From the IMG/VR virus record IMGVR_UViG_3300032516_002690, positions 40,210 through 104,209 of that record: a stretch of DNA of 64,000 nt; one strand, 5' to 3'. This DNA comes from a virus. The translations under genes and the position numbers were made by a program. Shown piece after piece: positions 16,420-64,000 of the stretch; position 1 is the first letter of the stretch, and the number at the start of each line of letters is the position of its first letter. The notes beneath the pieces were generated by a model. It had not been told where the DNA came from. It saw only the letters and a list, made by a program, of their open reading frames with translations, and ran no database searches.

Positions 16420-16806
16420 TTACGGCGTAATATTAGAATCGACGGATACTATATCAGTACCCTCGAAGGCGTCTACTATAGATGCCCATGCAACCGCAAG
16501 TATTTTAAACCTATTACGCGTAATAATCTCAAAGCCGGTGGCGTCTTTAATGGTTGCAAAATTTAATTGCGCACCGCGGCCCCTGTAAAAGTCCAGACCC
16601 GCAGAGATAGCTGCAGTTTTACCCACAGGAAAGGATTCCAGGTCGTAGACGCTAGCTACGCGTGAGAATGTATCGTGCTCTGCATCGAATACGAGCACGT
16701 CAAAATCAATGTTTACCGTGTCGATAATGTCTAGTTGAAAGCGGTACACGCTCTCAGACGGTATAGACCGAATAAATTGGCTTTTGATTTGTACGAGCGT
16801 ACTCAT
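16420..16806 (-). CDS. Hypothetical protein, probably structural
   Basis: A 128-residue protein of mixed strands and helices with no recognised motif. It overlaps the upstream minus-strand gene by four bases, so the two are coupled. Size and position beside beta-rich virion-like genes suggest a small structural or assembly protein. Confidence 0.55.
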   Translation of the reverse strand: MSTLVQIKSQFIRSIPSESVYRFQLDIIDTVNIDFDVLVFDAEHDTFSRVASVYDLESFPVGKTAAISAGLDFYRGRGAQLNFATIKDATGFEIITRNRFKILAVAWASIVDAFEGTDIVSVDSNITP

Positions 16807-17486
16807 ATCGACGAGCTCACGGTGACGGTTTCGCTTACCAGATTTGCGCCGGCTACTTCGTTAGTGAGAGACAACATGTCTGCTTTCGTGGCAATGACCG
16901 CGTTTTCGGCTGTAGCTACTTCGTCAAATACGCGGTTAAATCGCCGATCACGAAAGTTGCCAGCACCCGGCGCACCGTTGCGCAATGTCTTGCCAGCATA
17001 TGCAGTCAAACTCAAACGTGATATTGTCCAGCTAAATCCATTGTAGAAAGCAGGAAAGGGCGCATACAACTCCAAGCGGTTTACGTTACCGCCCGGCGCA
17101 ACTGTCTTGACTACAAACGTAAAGGGGTTTGTGCCGGGATATTCTGCAGAAGTCCAATAGGCAGGGTCCGTGATGCTAACGCCTATCAAGTCATCAACAA
17201 GCACGCCTGCAGTGCTAAAATTGACTGTCGTATCCTCCATGTAGTCAAGCGCGCGTGCAGTGATGCTGGTGAGTTGCGCGAGAGTTGACACACCTACGTA
17301 GGCTTCCGCGCCACCGCTGTAATTCCCTACAATAAAATATTGCATATTGTTGGGATGCGTAGGAAAGTACGTAGGCCCTGGTGTTGGGGGCACCACACCG
17401 TCATCGCGATTTCTAGTGATGACCCTTATTTTACCGGCTGTTATAAGACGGTCTTTCTCGAAAACGGCGGATATGTACGCACTCAT
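16803..17486 (-). CDS. Hypothetical virion-like protein
   Basis: A beta-rich protein of about 227 residues when started at the ATG at 17486 (MSAYISAVFEK). The frame stays open to 17555, but that would run into the divergent resolvase gene at 17503, so the shorter start is preferred. A proline-rich turn (PPTPGPTYFP) precedes a likely sandwich domain, and a helical segment ends the protein. No specific family is recognised. Confidence 0.55.
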   Translation of the reverse strand: MSAYISAVFEKDRLITAGKIRVITRNRDDGVVPPTPGPTYFPTHPNNMQYFIVGNYSGGAEAYVGVSTLAQLTSITARALDYMEDTTVNFSTAGVLVDDLIGVSITDPAYWTSAEYPGTNPFTFVVKTVAPGGNVNRLELYAPFPAFYNGFSWTISRLSLTAYAGKTLRNGAPGAGNFRDRRFNRVFDEVATAENAVIATKADMLSLTNEVAGANLVSETVTVSSSI

Positions 17487-17502
17487 AGCAGTACTATAGC
17501 CT

Positions 17503-18060
17503 ATGTCCTTTGTAATAGGCATAGACCAATCGGTGCTACACACAGGTATCTGCATCCTGAACGAGGACGCATCTGTGAACTATCTGGGTTTAATAGAGCC
17601 TGACAAGCTCAAAAACCGAGATCGGTTGGCGTATATTCGCGATGAACTCAATGCTGTCCTAGGAGCTAGGCGGTTTGCTGTTGGTGTCATGGAGGGCTAT
17701 TCGTACGGCAGTATGAATAAGAAGTTCCTGTTGGGTGAAGTAGGCTCAGTTGTAAAACTGGCCTTCCATGATCACTGCCTGCGTGCCTACGAAGTAGCAC
17801 CCGCAGCACTAAAGAAGTTTGTGACGTCTAAGGGCAGCGCGTCCAAAGAAGACGTGATGGTTGCAGTTGAGAAGCAGTGGGGAGTCATGCTAAAGGATGA
17901 CAACCTCGCTGACGCGTACGGCTTAGCCCGAATCGCCTACGAAATCGCAAAGCCCACCTCTACTAAGCGCCATCAATTAGACGTACTCAAAGGCTTGCTT
18001 AAAGAAGTGTCACGCAAAAAAGTACCTAGACGTAAGATCTTATTTAAAGATGCCATTTAA
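17503..18060 (+). CDS. RuvC-like Holliday junction resolvase
   Basis: A 185-residue nuclease of the RNase H-like fold. The acidic positions are in order: GIDQS at the N-terminus, VMEGYSYG near residue 63, and DDNLADAYGLA near residue 131. A basic KKFVTSKGSASKED region lies between, as in phage RuvC-like enzymes. It would resolve recombination and replication intermediates before packaging. There is no clear Shine-Dalgarno sequence, and only 16 bases separate it from the divergent ATG at 17486. Confidence 0.82.
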   Translation: MSFVIGIDQSVLHTGICILNEDASVNYLGLIEPDKLKNRDRLAYIRDELNAVLGARRFAVGVMEGYSYGSMNKKFLLGEVGSVVKLAFHDHCLRAYEVAPAALKKFVTSKGSASKEDVMVAVEKQWGVMLKDDNLADAYGLARIAYEIAKPTSTKRHQLDVLKGLLKEVSRKKVPRRKILFKDAI

Positions 18061-40204: not shown

Positions 40205-43200
40205 TCAAACCACTACAAAGCCCGCCCACGCCACGGTCATTGCGGGAGAAGCGTCTGTCGCGTTCAAATACATGCGCAGCTCGTACACCCTGGCTACGTC
40301 GTGAATCTCATTCAAATCGACACCTGGCGTAGTGACCTTCACCAAAGCTTGATCAACCTTCATCTGTGCTCCGACCGACGCAAATGGAATCGATACAACA
40401 GCTCTACGTACCGGGACAAACACGCCGGTTCCAGGCCCCATGTCGTACAAATATACGCGAGCACTGCTGGCAGCGTCAACTGACGTGTAATTTCCAACTA
40501 AACGCAGTGTGACCGTGCCGGGCACAGCGGTTGGGTCGAAATACATACCACCGCCGGTTACTTCAGTAACCTTAAGGTTGGTGGTTTCTTTCAACGTCAT
40601 TACGAGATTCTGTGCGCTGCTGCTACCGCTACTTACGGCCCACGTAAGGCCGCCCGAGCCGTCATTTTGTAGGAAAGTCGAAGCAGCGCCCTGGGCTGCG
40701 GGCCACGTCATCGCATGCGCTGTTACAACAGCAGGTGCTTTGATTGAAAGCGTATTGCCGTTGTCACCTACGAATTCGAGCCTAGTGGCCCTGTTACTAA
40801 CAGGTACCCTTTGTAGAACTACAGCGCTATCGTTAGCTGCGTTTGATCCGCGCCCACCTGTCAACCAGATGGGTTTTGCCACGCCTGTAATAAACGGAGC
40901 ACCGTTGATGAATACCGTACCCGGTCCAGCCCCACCAGACCCCGCTTCAATGGTGACGTGCCCGCCAGTACCCGTGGCATTAAAATTAGACCCGCCACCT
41001 AGAATAACAGAGCCTCCTGGTGTAGCTGCGCTGAGTGCGTAGCCCCCGGTCAATGTCAGCGTACCGCCGCCCGCCGCACTGGAGCCCCCCGCTTGTACGG
41101 TAACATCACGGCCTGTGCCTGTAGCCTCGTCAGCCGTGAATATAGCAGCTGTACCTGAGGTGATCGTACCTGTTGGTGTAATACGGAAACCACTATTGTT
41201 TAACGCTGATCCGTCTACGCCGTTCCATGTCGGAATGGCTTTGTCAGTACTTCCACCGACTCCAGGTCCTGACACATCAGCGGCTCCGCCTCCGGTCCAG
41301 GTCAGGTTACCCGATCCATCGTTACGCAAGAAGGTGGCGGCGGCACCCTGTGTGCCTGGGAGGACTAGTGCGTAAGACGCCGTGACCGTTACAGGTGCTT
41401 TTAGTGAAATCGTGCTTCCGTTGTCGCCTGTAAACCGAAGACGCGCTGCTCGGTTGCTGCCCCCTTCACGCGGTATACTAATAACGCCGTCGTTAGCTGC
41501 GCTGCTTCCGCTTCCGACGCGCAGTATGATGTCACCGGCTACAGTCCCGCCGATTGCTATGTCAGCCCCGAATATCGTAACAGATCCGGGGGCGCCGGTA
41601 GTTAAAGGTGTACCCCCGCCTATTGTAACGTTGCCGCCCGGGTTGGTCGCGGTTACCGCATTACCTCCGCCTATTGTAACGTTACCAGCTATGTTACCAG
41701 CACTAAGGCCGCCGTCGCCGCCGTAGAGATCTAGATGGCCACCCCTGCCATTCCCACCACCTATTCCGCCCTTTACAGAAGTATCACCTGCGGAACCAAG
41801 GGCCGTACCCCCTACACCGCCGACAATGTATACCGGCCCGCCGTTAAAGTTACTTCCAGGAATACCTCCTCGTAGGTGGAGGCCACCGCCACTTTGCGTA
41901 CCTTCACCTGCGTATAGCCGTAGGTCGAACCCCGTTAATGCTGCTATAGAGGGAGTAATCGTCTGCGCCGAAAGGGTAATATTTGTATCAAATAGGAACG
42001 CGCCTCCAGCACCGTTCCACGTAGCAATAGCGTTATTTGTCGAAGTACCTGGACCCGTTATACCCGTGGACCCCGGAATATTTAGCGTTGCTGTGGCTCC
42101 TGAGCCGGATATCGTCGCTCCCGTACCCGTGACATTTAGAATAGAGACGGTCGTGGATTGTGTAGCGCCTTCATCTTGAGTAGTTAGGGTCCCAGCTCCA
42201 GCGGTTGCCCAAGAAAGAACTCCAGAACCGTTGTTCTGCAGCAACGATGAGACTGCTCCCTGTGCCGTAGGCCATGTCAGGGCGTACGTTGTAACTGCTG
42301 CGGGTGCTTTAATTGAGACAAAATTGCCGTCATCACCGACAAACTGAAGGCGTGTGGCTCTATTATCTGTTGTTGTCCGCAATAGTCGAACGTAACCGTC
42401 ATCTACCAAAGTAGACCCGCGTCCCCCGCGTAGAAGTACGTTTCCACCAATCCCGCCCGACACTTGGCTTGCGCCCTGGATCGTAACTGAACCAGGCGTT
42501 CCTGTTGTTCCCGGGTTACCTCCGGTGATACTAACCGCACCGCCGTCGCCTCCAGAAGCACCCCCGGTACCTCCGGTTACCGTAGCCTGTCCGCCCGCTG
42601 AAGCGCTTGAGCCTGGGCCACCAGATAACTCAGCACCGCCTCCGCCGGAGACATTGCCCGCCCCTCCAATTAACTTAGCGAAGCCGCCGCTGGAGCCGTT
42701 TCCAGTACCTCCCTGGATAGTAACCGATCCCCCAAAGCTTGTATTACCGCCGGTACCTGCGAGTACACTTATACTACCACCCGTTACGCTGCTACCAAAA
42801 GAGTTACCCGCCTGTAGCGTTAACGCACCGCCTAAACCTGACCCTGAGCTATGGGCGCCCCCCGCTTGGATCAGGAAAGCTCCGCCGTTCCCCGTTCCAA
42901 TTGCGCCGATACCCGAGTAAAGGCTTACAGCGCCGCCATTACCAACAGCTCCACCCGCGGTGCTTGCGTTACCTGCGGTGAACCCCAACGGGCCGCCTGA
43001 GTGGGTGCCTGTACCGGTTGCCGCACCTGCGGTTATACCAACACCCCCGCCATTCCCAGACGCACCAGCGTCGCCGGCTGTCAGTGTTATAGCACCACCA
43101 TGACCGAAACTACCCGCTCCGGGCCCGCCTAGGAGGGTGACACCTCCGCCTAATCCTCCGCCTCCGGCTGCACCTGCCTGCAGCAGGACAGAACCTCCGT

Positions 43201-53272: not shown

Positions 53273-54070
53273 ATGCGTGTAGCATTGTTTGCGTTTTTAA
53301 CAATCGTTCTTAGCTGTATCACTTCTACGACTGCGAGTGCACAAGATCCGAGAGTAATCCATCTGAAGGCAAAAATACTAGAGAAAATGCCGGACTCGCG
53401 GTGGACCCGTGATGCGTTGGGTACGACTGTCGAACGCGAAGCGCGTGCTACTGAGCATGCTGAATCTATCATCAAAGCGGCTGACCGCTATATCGAGGAG
53501 TGGCAAGTATTTGCAGCTGATGCGGGTTGGACTGAATTTGAGCCGAAGCGTGATCTACCAGCACTCGTGAGTGCAGTCGCGTATTCCGAATCGTCATTTC
53601 GTTCAGTAATTCGTCTTGACGATGACACGCTAGTGAAGAAAGCCCCTAAATCTGGAAGGGCTGATATGGGCGTACTGCAGGTGCGGGCGCCTTCTACAAC
53701 TGCTGCCAATTGCGGCGTTAAAAATAAAGCAGACGTTCAACGCTTAGTCGACGATCTGCCTTTTGCTTATATGACAGGTACGTGCATTCTAACAAGACGT
53801 GTAGCGGCGTATATCAACCGATATAAATCGCAAGCCTTTACACGGTTTCAGCGGACAGAGCGCGCTAATTTCGATCTCGCGTTCTACGGTGTTGGTGTCC
53901 GACGCGAGAGTCCCGAACACTACAAACTCGCGCGTGAGCTTGTCATTGTTGAGAGGTACAATTGGGGAGACAAAGATTTGTATTTGCACAAATTGCACGG
54001 GGGGTATGCCCGGCGTGTCGTCTCATTGTTTGAGTTTTTCCGACTTCCAGTGCATGATTGCGGAGCTTAA
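53273..54070 (+). CDS. Secreted lytic transglycosylase
   Basis: About 265 residues from the ATG at 53273, chosen because GGAGG lies seven bases upstream; the in-frame ATG at 53261 overlaps that site. The N-terminus is a signal peptide (VALFAFLTIVLSCITS, then TASAQ). The catalytic segment AVAYSESSFRSVI has the SLT-type Glu, and the following GRADMGVLQVR matches the 'GLMQV' motif. It would cut glycan strands from the periplasm, so it is the likely endolysin, exported by Sec rather than through a holin. A lone start on the plus strand suggests separate regulation from the tail genes. Confidence 0.8.
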   Translation: MRVALFAFLTIVLSCITSTTASAQDPRVIHLKAKILEKMPDSRWTRDALGTTVEREARATEHAESIIKAADRYIEEWQVFAADAGWTEFEPKRDLPALVSAVAYSESSFRSVIRLDDDTLVKKAPKSGRADMGVLQVRAPSTTAANCGVKNKADVQRLVDDLPFAYMTGTCILTRRVAAYINRYKSQAFTRFQRTERANFDLAFYGVGVRRESPEHYKLARELVIVERYNWGDKDLYLHKLHGGYARRVVSLFEFFRLPVHDCGA

Positions 54071-54086
54071 GTCGGGGAGATAACGC

Positions 54087-56228
54087 ATGAAATGTAACGG
54101 GTGTGCTGCGGTTATGCCTTTTATGGAGGAAACACCGCAGGGATTCGGCTGTGTATTCTGTGAAGGGAAGCAATTCCCTGATGCTGTAGATATATTGACA
54201 GAGCCCTCTCTAGGGTTTGTAAACGAAACTCGGCATGGACAAATAACCATGGCCGACGAAATAAATACATCCATCGAATCCACCACACCCACGCTTTTTG
54301 AAGCGGGTACAGGTGTTGGCAAAAGCTTTGCCTACCTGTTACCTGCTATTTTATCTGGCAAGCGCACTGTCGTAAGCACAGCCAAAATTACGCTACAGCA
54401 GCAGTTGGTAGACAAAGATCTACCGCGTATCCAGCAATATTTAGCGCAAATCGGGCACCCACGCGCAACTTTTGAATATGCAGCAGCGTATGGCAAGAAT
54501 AAATATGCGTGTTACGCGGAGTGCGTAAAAGAGAGAAGTAATCACAAAGATTGGCCCAAATACCTCAAATTCTTCAAGCACAGCGAGTATGGTCTCTGGG
54601 AAGACGCGGATAAATTACATTTACGGTTAGACAATAATCTCAACGCCACCGACTGTATTGGCCCCGACTGCGCCCATTATAAGACCTGCGGATATATAAA
54701 AAGTCGCAAGACTATGCTTGCAGCGGATATTGTAGTTACCAATAACTGGCTGTTGGGCTTCCATTACAAGCTACGGCGCACGATGCCTCTTTTCCATCTG
54801 CTTGGTGAATTTGCGCACGTCATAATCGACGAAGCTCACAAAGTTGAAGACGGCATTCGCACTGCATTTACCAACGAAACGTCGCTAAATGCGCTAGATA
54901 AAATTCAATACAGATTCGATAGACTGCTCGATGTATCAAACGAACAATTTGAGCTTCCAGAGTTGGCTACGCTTGATCCACTCTGGAAAGCCGGGTTCGC
55001 TTCGTTAAATAGGCTACATCAAGCCAAATCGAATATCATAGATGCAAATACCTCTGCAGTAATACAAGACCTAATCAAAGGTCTCGACGACGTAACTAAC
55101 AGGTTGCTCGATAAAACTACGCTCGACACGATGTTCGAGCAACTGAGTCCTGTTACACATACAGAGTTAATTCGACGCTGGATTACGAAGACTCCGGCAC
55201 TTGCAAACGCGCCTTTAGCGGTGCCCGTAGCGTCTTCGCCCGTGGGCATGCCGCCGCGTCAGGGCTTTCCAAACATCTCTGACGATCAATGTGTATTTCT
55301 ATCCCTCGAAAAAATACTCGAACTCGTCGAAGATAGCCGTGAGACGTTCAGCAATATCCTGAAGGCGCAACCAAACCGCACCTGGATGATCGAACAGAAA
55401 ACGTTTAACGGCAAAACTAACCTCGTGCTCAAAGACATGCCCGTCAATATCGGCGGGTACATGCCTGACAAGTCAGTGACCTATGTATCAGCGACGTTGG
55501 CACTGGACGACAACTTTGATGTGTTCGCGGACCGTGTGGGGCTTCGAGGTAAAAATTACAAGAGCGATATATTTCCCTCGCCCTTCAACATACGAAAACA
55601 AGCATATCTGTACATCCCGCCGATCAAAGCAGTGCCAGAGCCTAAGACAATGGGCCCGGATGTTACGGCGTATCGCGAAGCCATGGCGTCGCAAATATAC
55701 GAGCTACTGCTGGCATGCGAAGGCGACACATTCGTACTTTTTACGTCCAACGCAGAACAAGACTACGTAAAAAACTACCTAATCTCTCGCGGGTACCCGC
55801 ATCCAATTATCGACAAAGCCACTTACCCTACTGACGCGCTCGCGCGCTACAGAGCTACGCCGAAAGCTACGTTGCTCGGCTCGAAGAGCTTTTGGGAAGG
55901 CGTAGATGTTGCCGGCAATAAATTGTTTATGGTCATAATCACAAAGTTGCCATTTCCGCTGCAGTCTGATCCGATCATCAAAGCGCGACACGCAATATTC
56001 AAAGGCGACAATGCTTGGCCGTTCATAGATCTGCCAGAAATGCTTTTTGATCTTCGACAAGGCGCGGGGCGTCTAATTCGAACACAAAAAGACCGAGGCA
56101 TGCTCGTCGTGCTGGATACACGGCTCCGTACAAAATACTACCGTGCACGTGCGATTAAAGCACTGGGCTTGACACCTGTTGATAATTTAGCGATGGTCTG
56201 CAAGGGGCTGCGTGAACGTAATGGGTGA
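54087..56228 (+). CDS. DinG/XPD-type DNA helicase
   Basis: A 713-residue superfamily 2 helicase. An N-terminal CxxC pair (C3/C6 and C22/C25) may form a small zinc finger. Walker A is GTGVGKS (74-80). Cysteines in KYACYAEC and TDCIGPDCAHYKTC are placed like the 4Fe-4S ligands of this family. Motif II is IIDEAHK, and motif VI is QGAGRLIRTQKDRG. These helicases unwind 5'-3', including forks, D-loops and G-quadruplexes. A GGGGAGA precedes the ATG. The next gene overlaps its end. Confidence 0.9.
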   Translation: MKCNGCAAVMPFMEETPQGFGCVFCEGKQFPDAVDILTEPSLGFVNETRHGQITMADEINTSIESTTPTLFEAGTGVGKSFAYLLPAILSGKRTVVSTAKITLQQQLVDKDLPRIQQYLAQIGHPRATFEYAAAYGKNKYACYAECVKERSNHKDWPKYLKFFKHSEYGLWEDADKLHLRLDNNLNATDCIGPDCAHYKTCGYIKSRKTMLAADIVVTNNWLLGFHYKLRRTMPLFHLLGEFAHVIIDEAHKVEDGIRTAFTNETSLNALDKIQYRFDRLLDVSNEQFELPELATLDPLWKAGFASLNRLHQAKSNIIDANTSAVIQDLIKGLDDVTNRLLDKTTLDTMFEQLSPVTHTELIRRWITKTPALANAPLAVPVASSPVGMPPRQGFPNISDDQCVFLSLEKILELVEDSRETFSNILKAQPNRTWMIEQKTFNGKTNLVLKDMPVNIGGYMPDKSVTYVSATLALDDNFDVFADRVGLRGKNYKSDIFPSPFNIRKQAYLYIPPIKAVPEPKTMGPDVTAYREAMASQIYELLLACEGDTFVLFTSNAEQDYVKNYLISRGYPHPIIDKATYPTDALARYRATPKATLLGSKSFWEGVDVAGNKLFMVIITKLPFPLQSDPIIKARHAIFKGDNAWPFIDLPEMLFDLRQGAGRLIRTQKDRGMLVVLDTRLRTKYYRARAIKALGLTPVDNLAMVCKGLRERNG

Positions 56229-58177: not shown

Positions 58178-58966
58178 ATGGCCGCGCGCCCCAATGCACT
58201 CCGTACGATTGAGTATGGAAAGCGTCTCGCATCAAACCAAATCAAGCGTCTAGACGAGATGGTCAAAATGACCACCGCCGTTCTGGAAGAGAACAAGACG
58301 TTAACCGCTAGTGATATTGCGGGCTACAAAGCCTGTATTTCGGCTGCGAATAAGCAGCTTACGCAATTCCGTAAGCTCGACGAATTGACACTGCCTGTCA
58401 TTGCTGAGCCCTCGCCACGTAAGCGCGGTCGTCCGAGTCAGGCAGACCTACAGACCATCGCGGCAACGCACGGTAAAAAGGGTGCAACGCGCGCGCAAGT
58501 AGCTGCCGCTCCTGTAGTTATTGTTAGCGCTCCTAAAAAGCGTGGCCGTAAGTCCAAGGCCGAGATTGCCGCGATCGAGGCAATGGCAGCCGCTGCGCTA
58601 GCCGCTGCTACGCCTGTGCCCAAAAAGCGCGGCCGTCCTGCCAAGGTCAAGACGGATGCCGTTACCGCCGCACAAGCTGCTACGGTAAATCAAGGCCCGC
58701 CGGCAAAGCGTCGCGGTCGCCCGCCCAAGGTTAAAAGCACGGAAGCAGAAACTGACAGTGGCGCGACTTTGGAAACTGTACAATCCGCAGCTGACGCACC
58801 CAAGCGTGCTCCTCGCAAGCCCAAGTCCGCTACTCCCGAGATTAATGTCGCTGCTATCGGCGAAGACGGCGAGCCCGTCAAGCGCGGCCCCGGTCGTCCC
58901 AAGGGGAGCAAAAATATCTCGAAGTCGTTGAACGGACAGCACTCAGAGATTATCACGGTAAACTAA
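58178..58966 (+). CDS. AT-hook nucleoid-like DNA-binding protein
   Basis: 262 residues. The N-terminal 70 residues are helical and may oligomerise. Five AT-hook-type motifs follow: RKRGRPS (81-87), KKRGRKSK (120-127), KKRGRPAK (149-156), KRRGRPPK (177-184) and KRGPGRPKG near 235-243. They are joined by Ala/Lys/Pro-rich linkers as in eukaryotic HMGA and some bacterial regulators. It would bind the minor groove of AT-rich DNA and may compact or bridge phage DNA, or silence or regulate transcription. It has its own leader and a strong terminator, so it is a single-gene unit. Confidence 0.82.
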   Translation: MAARPNALRTIEYGKRLASNQIKRLDEMVKMTTAVLEENKTLTASDIAGYKACISAANKQLTQFRKLDELTLPVIAEPSPRKRGRPSQADLQTIAATHGKKGATRAQVAAAPVVIVSAPKKRGRKSKAEIAAIEAMAAAALAAATPVPKKRGRPAKVKTDAVTAAQAATVNQGPPAKRRGRPPKVKSTEAETDSGATLETVQSAADAPKRAPRKPKSATPEINVAAIGEDGEPVKRGPGRPKGSKNISKSLNGQHSEIITVN

Positions 58967-60165: not shown

Positions 60166-60705
60166 ATGCTTCCAGATGTAGAGATCAGCCTCTTGGCTGG
60201 TCTGGGCCAAAATAGACTTTGGCTCAACAATCCATGGCAATATCCAGGATTTACTGAATTAACCCAGATGTTTTTGAAAGGACATACGGTCCTCATGGGA
60301 AGGGAAGCGTGGTTTGATTTCCCCTTAAAAGAAGATAAAACCATCACACCCTGGGTGTTGAGTCACAACCAGCATTTTCATATGTATACAAGAGCACGCT
60401 ATGCTCACGTACGCTTCGTAGATACCTGTGACATTCTACACCGCGTAATCCCTGCAAAAGGTATATGGTGGGTATTAGGCGGGCACTCCACCTACCGCGC
60501 TGTTCTGCCTTATGCGCACAGTGTTGAAGCGACTATTGTAACAGGTGCCGTAGGTCATGTAGACTTGCTAAAGCCAAGCACGTTTAAGCAGACGCATGCG
60601 TGCCCGCACCCTTTCCGTTCAACACTAGAGTGCGTACGATATGAACGACAATACATTACACCGCGCGATCTTACGCTTCAGGTGCAGCAAATGCAGGCGA
60701 ACTGA
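60166..60705 (+). CDS. folA: Dihydrofolate reductase
   Basis: 179 residues from ATG 60166, one base after the thymidylate synthase stop; the longer frame to 60115 lies in that gene. Core motifs: ISLLAGLGQNRLW at the start, GHTVLMGREAWFDFP and WWVLGGHSTYRAVLP. It regenerates tetrahydrofolate consumed by thymidylate synthase, and the pairing is common in phages. It overlaps the next gene by 65 bases. Confidence 0.85.
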   Translation: MLPDVEISLLAGLGQNRLWLNNPWQYPGFTELTQMFLKGHTVLMGREAWFDFPLKEDKTITPWVLSHNQHFHMYTRARYAHVRFVDTCDILHRVIPAKGIWWVLGGHSTYRAVLPYAHSVEATIVTGAVGHVDLLKPSTFKQTHACPHPFRSTLECVRYERQYITPRDLTLQVQQMQAN

Positions 60706-61024
60706 GTTCGTTGACGCGCAGCAAGATCCAGCGGACGGCGGATATATCATCGACGACAGTTGGGCGCCAGTGCAGGGTTGGTTGCGTATTCAGAGCACGG
60801 CGGTTGGTTTGCGTGCAGGCGTGCAGAATATGTACTGCAGAACCTGCAAGGTAGAAGTACTTGCGATGTTGGGCTATCCAACCGTTAATTCATTTGAGAT
60901 TGTGGTAAAAGACAATGAGATACTTGATAGCCGCGTGAACGTTGATTCGTCACGCATTGACTTGGACGACGATACTGAAGAGTTTCCTTTTTACCTTCTT
61001 GAATCTGAAGAAGAGTACAACTGA
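60641..61024 (+). CDS. Small zinc-ribbon-like protein
   Basis: 127 residues with CSKC near residue 15 and CRTC near residue 66, a spacing suited to a zinc ribbon, and an acidic C-terminus. It begins inside the DHFR gene. It is the last gene before the 1.2-kb structured gap. No family is recognised. Confidence 0.55.
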   Translation: MNDNTLHRAILRFRCSKCRRTEFVDAQQDPADGGYIIDDSWAPVQGWLRIQSTAVGLRAGVQNMYCRTCKVEVLAMLGYPTVNSFEIVVKDNEILDSRVNVDSSRIDLDDDTEEFPFYLLESEEEYN

Positions 61025-62237
61025 TCTGAGTACGCACGTAGATATAAATAGCTGTGCAGAGATGTTTCGTCTCTGTCGCGTAAGCTTCAGACAAATCTCC
61101 GTTTTATTCGGCTTTCGCTTGAATAAAATCTTATATGAAAGTTACTTCGGAACTTCCATATAAGAATGATCACAGGTACAACATCAGTGTGCAATTGGCA
61201 TAAGCCAAGACGGCGTTGTTTCGACGCTGAATTACAAAGATATACTGCCAAGCGCATCGCTGTGCTATAAAAAGATTTAATAGACGCAGACGAGTCTATT
61301 AAATCTTTTGCAGCCTAGACACTGTAAACAGCTAAGCCGCTACAAAGCAAACGCGGTGCTTCGCCGCGATCACGCAATACCCCTCTCCCCTGCCTAAGCA
61401 CTTACTGCGTCGTGCTATTAGCAGTCCAGTGCATGGGATGATATACAGGGGGCCAACACAGTTAGCTGTAGTAAAAACAACGTAGTATTTAAGTTCGCTA
61501 CCCCTGGTTGGTGTTTCGCCAACTGAGTACCACTACGCGGTAACGCGTAGCGTTTTATGTTTAAAGGCAGGCGCTTTAAACTGTAAAACTAGTACGTTGT
61601 TAGATTTAGAACACTCGCATGGATGCAATCCAACAGCTGATGCTCCGTCAGCAATAGCGTTGAATGCGGTCAGCGCTTAAGAAATTGTTACTGACGTACC
61701 GGCTTTTTAAACAGCTCCGTAGTCGCTGGTTAAACGCCTACAATTTCTCTGTGCTAACGTGCTCATTGCACGCCGCTCGGGAAACCGGGGGACGCTCCGC
61801 AGCAAATATGCCTAATTAAGATACAGCCTTTAATTAGACATAATTGCTCTGCTCCGCGGTACCAATCCCCCTAGTCCTTCGGACTTTCCCCTCGCTTCGC
61901 TTCACCACAACAATAGGTGTGTTCAATCGAAATAATCAATTAGGCTGGCGTTCCGCCAATCTACTGCATGCGCTGTAACTGAGAATCATTGGTGGACATT
62001 ACGCTTGCCAATGACCGAGGATTGAGCCGCTTAACTTGAGCTAGTGTAAATACGCCGGAAAATTCCGAGACGTGGTGCTTAATTGGGGTAGCCGTTGGGA
62101 GCGGTTATGCTGTCCGCCACGCATGCTGCTTGTTAGGGCTGAAATACTTGACACGCTCCGCCGAGTCAAATATTTACGTCATTAAGAAGAACACCATAGG
62201 TATTTACACTTTTCTTTAGGTTTGCTAAGGTGCTGCA
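61025..62237 (+). ncRNA. Candidate large ornate structured RNA region
   Basis: No credible gene lies in these 1,213 bases, in a genome where genes otherwise overlap. About twenty hairpins are visible. Examples: 61057-61075; 61101-61129; 61131-61163 with a C(UUCG)G loop; 61195-61208; 61213-61227; 61352-61368; 61507-61523; 61533-61550 with a GUAA loop; 61559-61581; 61636-61652; 61656-61677; a two-stem domain at 61680-61748; 61758-61772; 61776-61789 with a GAAA loop; 61808-61841; 61873-61885; 61946-61958; 61986-62014; 62142-62175. GNRA and UUCG loops and G-U pairs favour function as RNA, not DNA. The plus strand is chosen because flanking genes run that way and because G-U pairs are placed correctly on it. 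A TATAAATA at 61042-61049 could be a -10 element but lacks a clear -35. Transcript ends are unknown. Confidence 0.65.
61270..61309 (+). repeat. Perfect 16-bp inverted repeat
   Basis: AAAAGATTTAATAGAC (61270-61285) pairs without mismatch with its complement at 61294-61309 around an eight-base loop. The right arm ends in TTTT, so it could act as an AT-rich bidirectional terminator, or be the longest helix of the structured RNA region. Confidence 0.75.
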
Positions 62238-62831
62238 ATGAAATTGCAATACCCAATCATTGGCTTTACAGGACGTGCTTCCGCAGGCAAAGACACCGTA
62301 GGTAATTACATTTGTGAGGCGGGACAACTAAAAGGTAAGACTGTCGCAAAGATGGCCTGTGCGGATCAGTTAAAGCGTATTTGTTCCGAGGTATTCTACG
62401 ATGCTTTTGGTGTATCTTCGGCGGCTTTCTTCGGTACTCAAGAAGACAAAGAGGCTCCTCTCGAAGAAGTCCCTGGTTGGTCTGGAAGACGGATACTTCA
62501 GTACGTAGGTACAGAAGGATTCCGGCATGTGCACGAAGACGTTTGGGCCCGCGCTATGATCGGGCGCGCTCGCAGCTTAATCAACGGTAACCTCTGTAAA
62601 ATGGTCGTCGTGTGTGACGTACGCTTTTTGACTGAAGCAGCGGTAATCAAAGAAGCCGGCGGGATCATCGTTCGCATCAAGCGTCCCGAGGCAGACAGGG
62701 TAGTTTCTACACACGCATCGGAAACGCAACTAGCTCTTATACAAGAAGATTATGTCATAGACAATCAGGGCAAGGAATTGTATCTTCTGGAAAAACTCGT
62801 TGGGGAGTTCCTATGCCAATTGAATTTCTAG
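62238..62831 (+). CDS. Deoxynucleoside monophosphate kinase
   Basis: 197 residues. The P-loop is FTGRASAGKDT (10-20), followed by a lid and substrate region with the FFGTQEDKEAP and GRRILQYVGTEGFR phrases typical of phage dNMP kinases. VVVCDVRFLTEAA fits the Walker B strand. It phosphorylates dTMP and other dNMPs made by the upstream enzymes. AAGG precedes the ATG. It overlaps the exonuclease gene by 19 bases. Confidence 0.85.
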   Translation: MKLQYPIIGFTGRASAGKDTVGNYICEAGQLKGKTVAKMACADQLKRICSEVFYDAFGVSSAAFFGTQEDKEAPLEEVPGWSGRRILQYVGTEGFRHVHEDVWARAMIGRARSLINGNLCKMVVVCDVRFLTEAAVIKEAGGIIVRIKRPEADRVVSTHASETQLALIQEDYVIDNQGKELYLLEKLVGEFLCQLNF

Positions 62832-63622: not shown

Positions 63623-63670
63623 CTTTAAGTAATAAAAATTCACAGTATTCCGGTAAAAGAAGATATACAG

Positions 63671-63696
63671 CGATACGCTAAATGCTATCGTTTTTT
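63671..63696 (+). terminator. Rho-independent terminator after DnaQ-like gene
   Basis: CGATA (63671-63675) plus GC pairs with GC plus TATCG (63684-63690), with one bulged C, followed by six T. It lies 48 bases after the stop. Confidence 0.75.
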
Positions 63697-63697
63697 A

Positions 63698-63940
63698 ACA
63701 CGTAAGACAGACTAATAGTCTAAGCCTGTGCTCCGCAGGCGCGAATGTACGTGGCTGCTGCTCCTGTCCTCAATTTCCGCGTATACTATGTTAAATACAT
63801 CCGCTAGCGGTTGTATCTAAAATAGTATCCACAGCAAATTGGGCGGACGTACAGCGAGCTGCGTCCCTACCCATCACAGTTACGTGCTATATACTCTACA
63901 TAACCCCCCATTCTTTATATGACACTTTTTAGCAGGATCT
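63698..63940 (+). other. Second structured gap: hairpins and 46-base near-palindrome
   Basis: After the terminator the gap holds four structures. AGACT-AAT-AGTCT is at 63709-63721. GCCTGTG-CTC-CGCAGGC at 63724-63740 is of the same type as five hairpins in the 61-kb region. A near-palindrome at 63783-63828 has 22-base arms, 19 pairs and three mismatches, centred on CCGCTAGCGG. A bulged stem at 63845-63866 is closed by GGACG/CGTCC. No reading frame is supported. It may be a leader or small RNA ahead of the gene at 63948. Confidence 0.55.
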
Positions 63941-63947
63941 AACGCAA

Positions 63948-64000
63948 ATGACCGACGAAACCAAAGTACCCGAGACCATGACCGTCGCCGACAACTCGAC
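63948..64000 (+). CDS. Start of a gene cut by the window end
   Basis: An ATG at 63948 has AGGA about ten bases upstream and opens a frame reading MTDETKVPETMTVADNS to the window edge. It is too short to assign. The acidic, flexible N-terminus is typical of many phage proteins. Confidence 0.5.
   Translation, partial: MTDETKVPETMTVADNS

Follow-up and report, generated by a model that had tools for sequence, protein, structure and literature searches.

The gene-free locus and its neighbourhood

The window, by which we mean the whole stretch of 64,000 nucleotides that was analysed, corresponds to positions 40210–104209 of a 104,209-bp virus record. With open reading frames (ORFs) of at least 80 aa taken as genes, the segment from 61025 to 62237 is the sole gap of more than 400 bp in the 104-kb phage contig. 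As the initial annotation had described, the setting is one of nucleotide metabolism, with thymidylate synthase (TS, encoded three genes upstream of the locus) and DHFR on the upstream side and a deoxynucleotide monophosphate (dNMP) kinase and an exonuclease on the downstream side. The locus and the two ORFs that flank it are as follows.

60641–61024, + strand: upstream ORF of 127 aa, with no family match and no relative in phage records
61025–62237, + strand: the structured noncoding RNA locus as a whole, identified from the gap, the fold z score and syntenic homologues; its bounds are those of the gap
62238–62831, + strand: downstream gene for dNMP kinase, the syntenic marker for two related contigs, G001 and G009

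No ORF longer than 73 aa lies mostly within 61025–62237, and the codon-usage signal falls below that of shuffled sequence in all six frames; the best 40-codon window of the region scores 0.126, compared with a shuffled mean of 0.20 and values of 0.40–0.42 for the two flanking genes. These results bear out the earlier claim that the region holds no plausible gene, and six-frame (tblastx) comparison of the region with related phages gave nothing significant. We regard it as extremely improbable that the region is a decayed gene or an ordinary long operon spacer with terminators and folds. Its location in an operon and an excess of terminator-like sites (13 observed against 4.4 expected over 59–64 kb) fit such an origin, but the region lacks a coding signal and any significant tblastx match to the related genomes, and it retains covarying hairpins across very diverged genomes, as described below. 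The initial annotation had named a strong match to a protein-coding remnant among the findings that would count against its reading; with coding signal absent and no related gene matching the region, a decayed gene is rejected.

Folding of the region

The + strand of the whole region folds with a z score of −5.6 (30 shuffles, base-pair span of at most 185 nt), the first half scoring −4.5 and the second −2.25, and local fold windows have a mean z of −1.7 inside the region versus −0.4 in the rest of the window. The structural elements singled out in the initial annotation were recovered at exactly the positions given there: the loops CTTCGG (C(UUCG)G in the RNA, 61145–61150), GTAA (GUAA, 61540–61543) and GAAA (61781–61784), and a long-range helix in which AGAAATTGT at 61680–61688 pairs with ACAATTTCT at 61740–61748. 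Two long hairpins also stand out.

61129–61165, + strand: 15-bp hairpin, 93% paired, with one A·C mismatch and a 7-nt loop
61270–61309, + strand: perfect 16-bp hairpin with an 8-nt loop; a 21-bp hairpin with a loop of the same size occurs in G001

Related phages carry copies of the region

A search with the helicase from the same region as query identified the 180-kb contig G001, which is collinear with the phage over nearly all of the 104 kb, with protein identities mostly of 35–80%. At the syntenic position in G001, between an AT-hook-like gene and the dNMP kinase gene, there is a 1,159-nt gene-free stretch with a fold z of −10.8 as a whole at limited span and of −16 (20 shuffles) for its 997-nt core; a strong intrinsic terminator of the same orientation closes the region. 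Thirteen contigs were reached through a terminase alignment, among them G009 (190 kb), whose proteins are again mostly 35–80% identical and which has the dNMP kinase and, upstream of it, two structured gene-free regions, the first directly after TS. The syntenic region of G009 is about 1.2 kb long and folds with a z of −8.4, and this genome carries two further copies besides it (the three regions are referred to as G009a, G009b and G009c). The third of them, at reverse-complement coordinates 53700–54700, is found past the exonuclease gene, about 5 kb further on than the second, and has a weaker fold z of −2.9. Contig G011 has one copy, abutting the terminase gene, and the nearly identical contig G012 confirms its place. 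There are thus six regions in all, one in the window, one in G001, three in G009 and one in G011, totalling 5.6 kb, and the comparison is one of four diverged genomes. The presence of the RNA at several sites among related phages goes unmentioned in the initial annotation.

Sequence similarity among these regions is slight. No region-length DNA similarity was found between the window and G001, and in a whole-length RNA alignment sequence homology was confined to short blocks. A nucleotide search of phage records for relatives of the region gave no match, early protein-level scans against viral contigs returned no relative or G001 only, and scans of GTDB genomes did not find relatives. Beyond G001 and G009, the start-codon pattern of the AT-hook-like gene retrieved only unrelated contigs, and a pattern search with the conserved 39-nt block described below retrieved G009 only, plus two chance matches in coding DNA. 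Salmonella phage Arash is distantly related by its terminase; its genes are ordered differently, and its first 50 kb hold no region of this kind.

The ORFs that neighbour the RNA vary from genome to genome. In the window, G001 and G009 alike, a KRGRP-repeat (AT-hook-like) protein is encoded upstream of the RNA (58178–58966 in the window and 16801–17688 in G001 locus L006), and its gene directly adjoins the RNA in G001. Small Cys-rich, zinc-ribbon-like proteins without a convincing family match are encoded next to the RNA or close by, both in the window (60641–61024) and in G001 (L006, 19281–19685). With ORFs of at least 90 aa taken as genes, G001 has several further gaps of 0.8–2.4 kb at reverse-complement coordinates 109–128 kb, and these lack a hairpin cluster.

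A conserved triloop hairpin is repeated in all six regions

Common to all six regions is a 7-bp triloop hairpin, NNYGRYG-NWY-CGYCRNN, an organising feature that is absent from the initial annotation. The window has six copies.

61058–61074, + strand: copy 1, AGAGAUG-UUU-CGUCUCU, matching the consensus and the covariance model
61212–61228, + strand: copy 2, GGCGUUG-UUU-CGACGCU, off the GRYG consensus, with the same cap (at 61217) and a 7-bp stem
61352–61368, + strand: copy 3, CGCGGUG-CUU-CGCCGCG, matching the consensus and the covariance model
61507–61523, + strand: copy 4, GUUGGUG-UUU-CGCCAAC, matching the consensus and the covariance model
61636–61652, + strand: copy 5, GCUGAUG-CUC-CGUCAGC, matching the consensus and the covariance model
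61944–61960, + strand: copy 6, GCUGGCG-UUC-CGCCAAU, with one stem mismatch, matching the consensus and the covariance model

Perfect triloop hairpins of at least 7 bp have the cap YG-NNY-CG in nearly all cases in the window and G001 regions and in most cases in the G009 regions, and every capped hairpin of the G001 region has the loop UAC. A scan of all the contigs under comparison placed clusters of the cap exclusively at the six regions (one each for the window, G001 and G011, and three for G009), with between three and eight hairpin copies per RNA (for example three in G009b and seven in G001). An 11-nt consensus has 23 matches within the 5.6 kb of the regions, compared with 24 in about 770 kb outside them and a single match on the minus strand inside them. 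Of the 23 matches, 14 fall within the 3.6 kb made up by the window region, the G001 region and G009a, which had been selected before the motif was known; G009b, G009c and G011 are not independent of the motif because they were found through hairpin clusters. Stem positions 5–7 are paired in 96, 91 and 91% of cases inside the regions versus 17, 25 and 46% outside, and pairing beyond stem position 7 drops to 57 and 35%. Outside the hairpin, an alignment of 29 copies shows no conservation at any position.

The stems covary. Over the 23 copies, 96.9% of cells are paired compared with 75.3% in shuffles, and two-sided changes account for 42 cells compared with 13; the covariation score is 0.70 against 0.25 in shuffles, a value that no shuffle out of 500 reached, and slid controls stayed at 0.18 or below. 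The search consensus leaves free only the outer three pairs and the G-C/A-U pair, and it is these that carry the covariation. Covariation among homologues, which the initial annotation had proposed as one check on its reading, is present. A covariance model was run over 840 kb and its best 25 matches all fall within the regions, including the G012 copy of the G011 region, whereas the first match elsewhere has an E value of 0.9; because these very copies had been used to build the model, it is the lack of matches elsewhere that is informative. The triloop is closed by G-C, and the second pair is U·G in 12 of the 23 copies, C-G in the other 11, and never U-A.

Syntenic homologues, fold significance and covariation together uphold the core of the earlier interpretation, that the region is a long ornate structured RNA. 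We conclude that 61025–62237 is a genuine structured noncoding RNA of an undescribed family; its structure is directly evident from these comparisons and we infer its transcription.

Strand and the possibility of a DNA element

The fold significance of the region is equally strong on its minus strand. Similar folding of both strands is to be expected of nearly perfect palindromes, and the assignment to the + strand thus comes from the strand bias of the hairpin and from its U·G pairs. The occurrence of U·G or C-G at the second pair, without U-A, seems natural for a + strand RNA and would be odd for DNA. An alternative explanation, which we consider very improbable, is that the region is a DNA element such as a replication origin, a packaging site or an array of hairpin promoters, whose inverted repeats would act in single- or double-stranded DNA. 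The similar folding of the two strands would agree with this, as would the interior mismatches, which favour no strand overall (19 G·U versus 16 A·C), and the position of the G011 copy next to the terminase gene; however, the consensus is specific to the + strand (23 matches versus 1) with the second-pair preference just described, a strong intrinsic terminator of matching orientation closes the G001 region, and three separate copies in one genome are unusual for an origin. An operator array in double-stranded DNA is likewise unlikely, given the strand bias and the stem covariation.

Domain architecture

Most of the hairpins in G001 and G009 lie in units of about 115–160 nt closed by a helix of 8–12 bp, so that each domain has its own closing helix and one repeated hairpin, and successive closed units adjoin within a few nucleotides. 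We scored this arrangement by dynamic programming over non-overlapping closed units around hairpins, in comparison with shuffles. The z scores are 3.3 for G001, 3.2 for G009a and 4.4 for G009b, and the score is not above shuffles in the window (z −0.1) or in G011 (z 0.4); we therefore hold the domain reading firmly in the window only for 61476–61601. The domains of the window and the conserved block are listed here.

61476–61601, + strand: domain with a 9-bp closing helix, AACAACGUA/UACGUUGUU, orthologous to the G009 domain closed by GACAGCUAUG/CAUAGCUGUU
61502–61540, + strand: most conserved block, CCCUGG-hairpin-GUACCNCUACGCGG, with 82% identity to G009 over 39 nt (E 8.5e-6)
61328–61469, + strand: predicted domain with the closing helix ACAGCUAA/UUAGCUGU, which by itself lacks significance in the window sequence
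61185–61324, + strand: tentatively predicted domain closed by CAGUGU/ACACUG
61606–61757, + strand: tentatively predicted domain with the helix 61680–61688/61740–61748 inside it

The domain at 61476–61601 and its G009 orthologue have the same rank, each holding the fourth hairpin, and the orthologue of copy 4 (GUUGACG-UUC-CGUCAAC) has A-U in place of G-C, a compensatory change, and C-G in place of U·G. Their closing helices are unrelated in sequence and the pairing is kept; MAFFT did not align these helices, with input coordinates that were slightly shifted. Local tests of the closing helix and of the neighbouring hairpins are weak singly and give combined p values of 0.005 and 0.03.

The domains might instead be the products of a polycistronic array, the transcript being cut between them and each 115–150-nt domain acting alone as a small RNA. 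The independent closing helices and close spacing of the G001 and G009 domains are compatible with this, as is the variable number of hairpins between copies (three in G009b and seven in G001). We think it rather unlikely, however, as the presence of the same hairpin in all domains suggests one common role, and no known processing site or tRNA-like element is present.

Comparison with known RNA families

Rfam 15 at the gathering score gave no family in the window, in G001 locus L006 or in 120 kb of G001, in agreement with the failure of the initial annotation to match the region to a named family; at relaxed thresholds there were only matches far below the cut-off, or none. GOLLD, ROOL, OLE, HEARO and the group I and II introns had no match at the gathering score in the window or at E of 5 or less in the region, and the GOLLD and ROOL models had none in the G001 or G009 regions. 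Neither the window nor the first 38.9 kb of the contig has a tRNA gene by ARAGORN or Rfam, and G001 likewise has none; the tRNA genes of G009 lie more than 40 kb from the RNA. A permuted-tmRNA match reached 20.1 bits against a cut-off of 47.

To our knowledge only a handful of giant ornate phage RNAs have been described, and their functions are poorly understood. GOLLD, many members of which exceed 800 nt, is often found near tRNA islands, and ROOL is a large ornate RNA of phages and prophages, ROOL env-120 being 659 nt long; the function of both is unknown. OLE is a large ornate bacterial RNA that binds proteins. The region described here is long, free of genes and carried by phages, with a structure that is conserved and covaries, and so counts as a large ornate phage RNA in the wide sense. 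It shares with GOLLD its phage location, large size and highly ornate structure, but differs in lacking an Rfam match and a nearby tRNA island and in being organised by a repeated, near-identical hairpin and, in the relatives, by tandem domains. ROOL is likewise a large ornate phage RNA, but the RNA here is about twice the length of ROOL env-120, has another organising motif and has no Rfam match, and it differs from OLE, which is also large and ornate, in its phage operon and again in the absence of an Rfam match. The resemblance to GOLLD and ROOL drawn in the initial annotation thus stands for size and style, and does not extend to a match with either Rfam model or to a tRNA island. The RNA is like GOLLD and ROOL in kind (PMC12286853) and by the tests applied is a member of neither.

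Possible roles of the RNA

Conservation of the hairpin alone in sequence, while its surroundings change, most likely reflects recognition in trans, which would be by one protein. If the hairpin had its partner within the same molecule, a conserved receptor sequence would be expected, and we see none, hence a model in which the RNA is a multivalent scaffold or decoy. In this model a + strand RNA would be made from the nucleotide-metabolism operon as a string of folded domains, of 115–150 nt where they are clear, and would gather or titrate many copies of a hairpin-binding protein during infection. An undescribed RNA family of 180–190-kb phages, built as a string of domains and acting as such a scaffold or decoy, is our best explanation overall, and we give it an even chance of being correct.

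A different possibility is that the assembly is of RNA only, with the domains forming a particle or cage by RNA-RNA contacts as in GOLLD and ROOL, and the hairpin serving as a docking element. GOLLD, ROOL and OLE form homo-oligomers (PMC12286853), the size, complexity and phage location are similar, and identical repeated hairpins would suit a repeated contact, the G-UAC-C loops of G001 being self-complementary. Loops of the window and G009 (UUU, CUU, CUC and AAC) are not self-complementary, however, and with neither a conserved receptor nor Rfam similarity we consider this assembly unlikely, if still a serious candidate.

Short stems with a triloop are recognised by proteins in the Roquin CDE and in TS ligands (PMC5603727, PMC10380284). 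The stem-triloop CG(UGU)CG is the one selected by eukaryotic TS; the hairpin enriched by E. coli ThyA is also a triloop and has a strict G-U pair, but did not show specific binding by EMSA (PMC10380284). The TS-selected CG(UGU)CG resembles the YG(NWY)CG seen here, by analogy only and in different organisms. TS is encoded near the RNA in two of the three genomes where the locus is visible: its gene immediately precedes the RNA in G009 and lies three genes before it in the window. The hairpins could be ligands of the phage or host TS that regulate or sequester the enzyme; the U·G pair in 12 of 23 copies also recalls the TS-selected triloops (PMC10380284). We rate this reading as improbable because G001 has the RNA yet encodes neither family of TS; in addition, the E. 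coli ThyA hairpin lacked specific binding by EMSA (PMC10380284), and stable triloop hairpins may be frequent in selections. More broadly, the scaffold or decoy model can be stated as a new class of beads-on-a-string RNA, with the same protein-binding hairpin in each domain, that collects or sequesters many copies of one protein during infection, possibly an enzyme of nucleotide synthesis such as TS, and in this specific form we put it forward only tentatively.

The family adds an undescribed giant phage RNA in which one short, sequence-conserved hairpin is repeated through an otherwise fast-changing molecule. The conserved hairpin offers a bait of about 20 nt for a binding partner, so that the function of giant phage RNAs becomes a testable question.

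Two further features of the phage were recorded. Another gene-free stretch extends from 63623 to 64000 in the window, up to the end of the contig; its fold z as a whole is only −0.3, and it holds one hairpin with the family cap, GCCTGTG-CTC-CGCAGGC, with its loop at 63731. Elsewhere, at L004:3876–8282 on the minus strand (G000:C1:22876–27282), a 1468-aa protein joins in a single chain the Rpb2 (beta) domains of RNA polymerase and, after them, the Rpb1 (beta-prime) domains. The phage is therefore likely to have a multi-subunit-type RNA polymerase of its own, in the form of a beta/beta-prime fusion.
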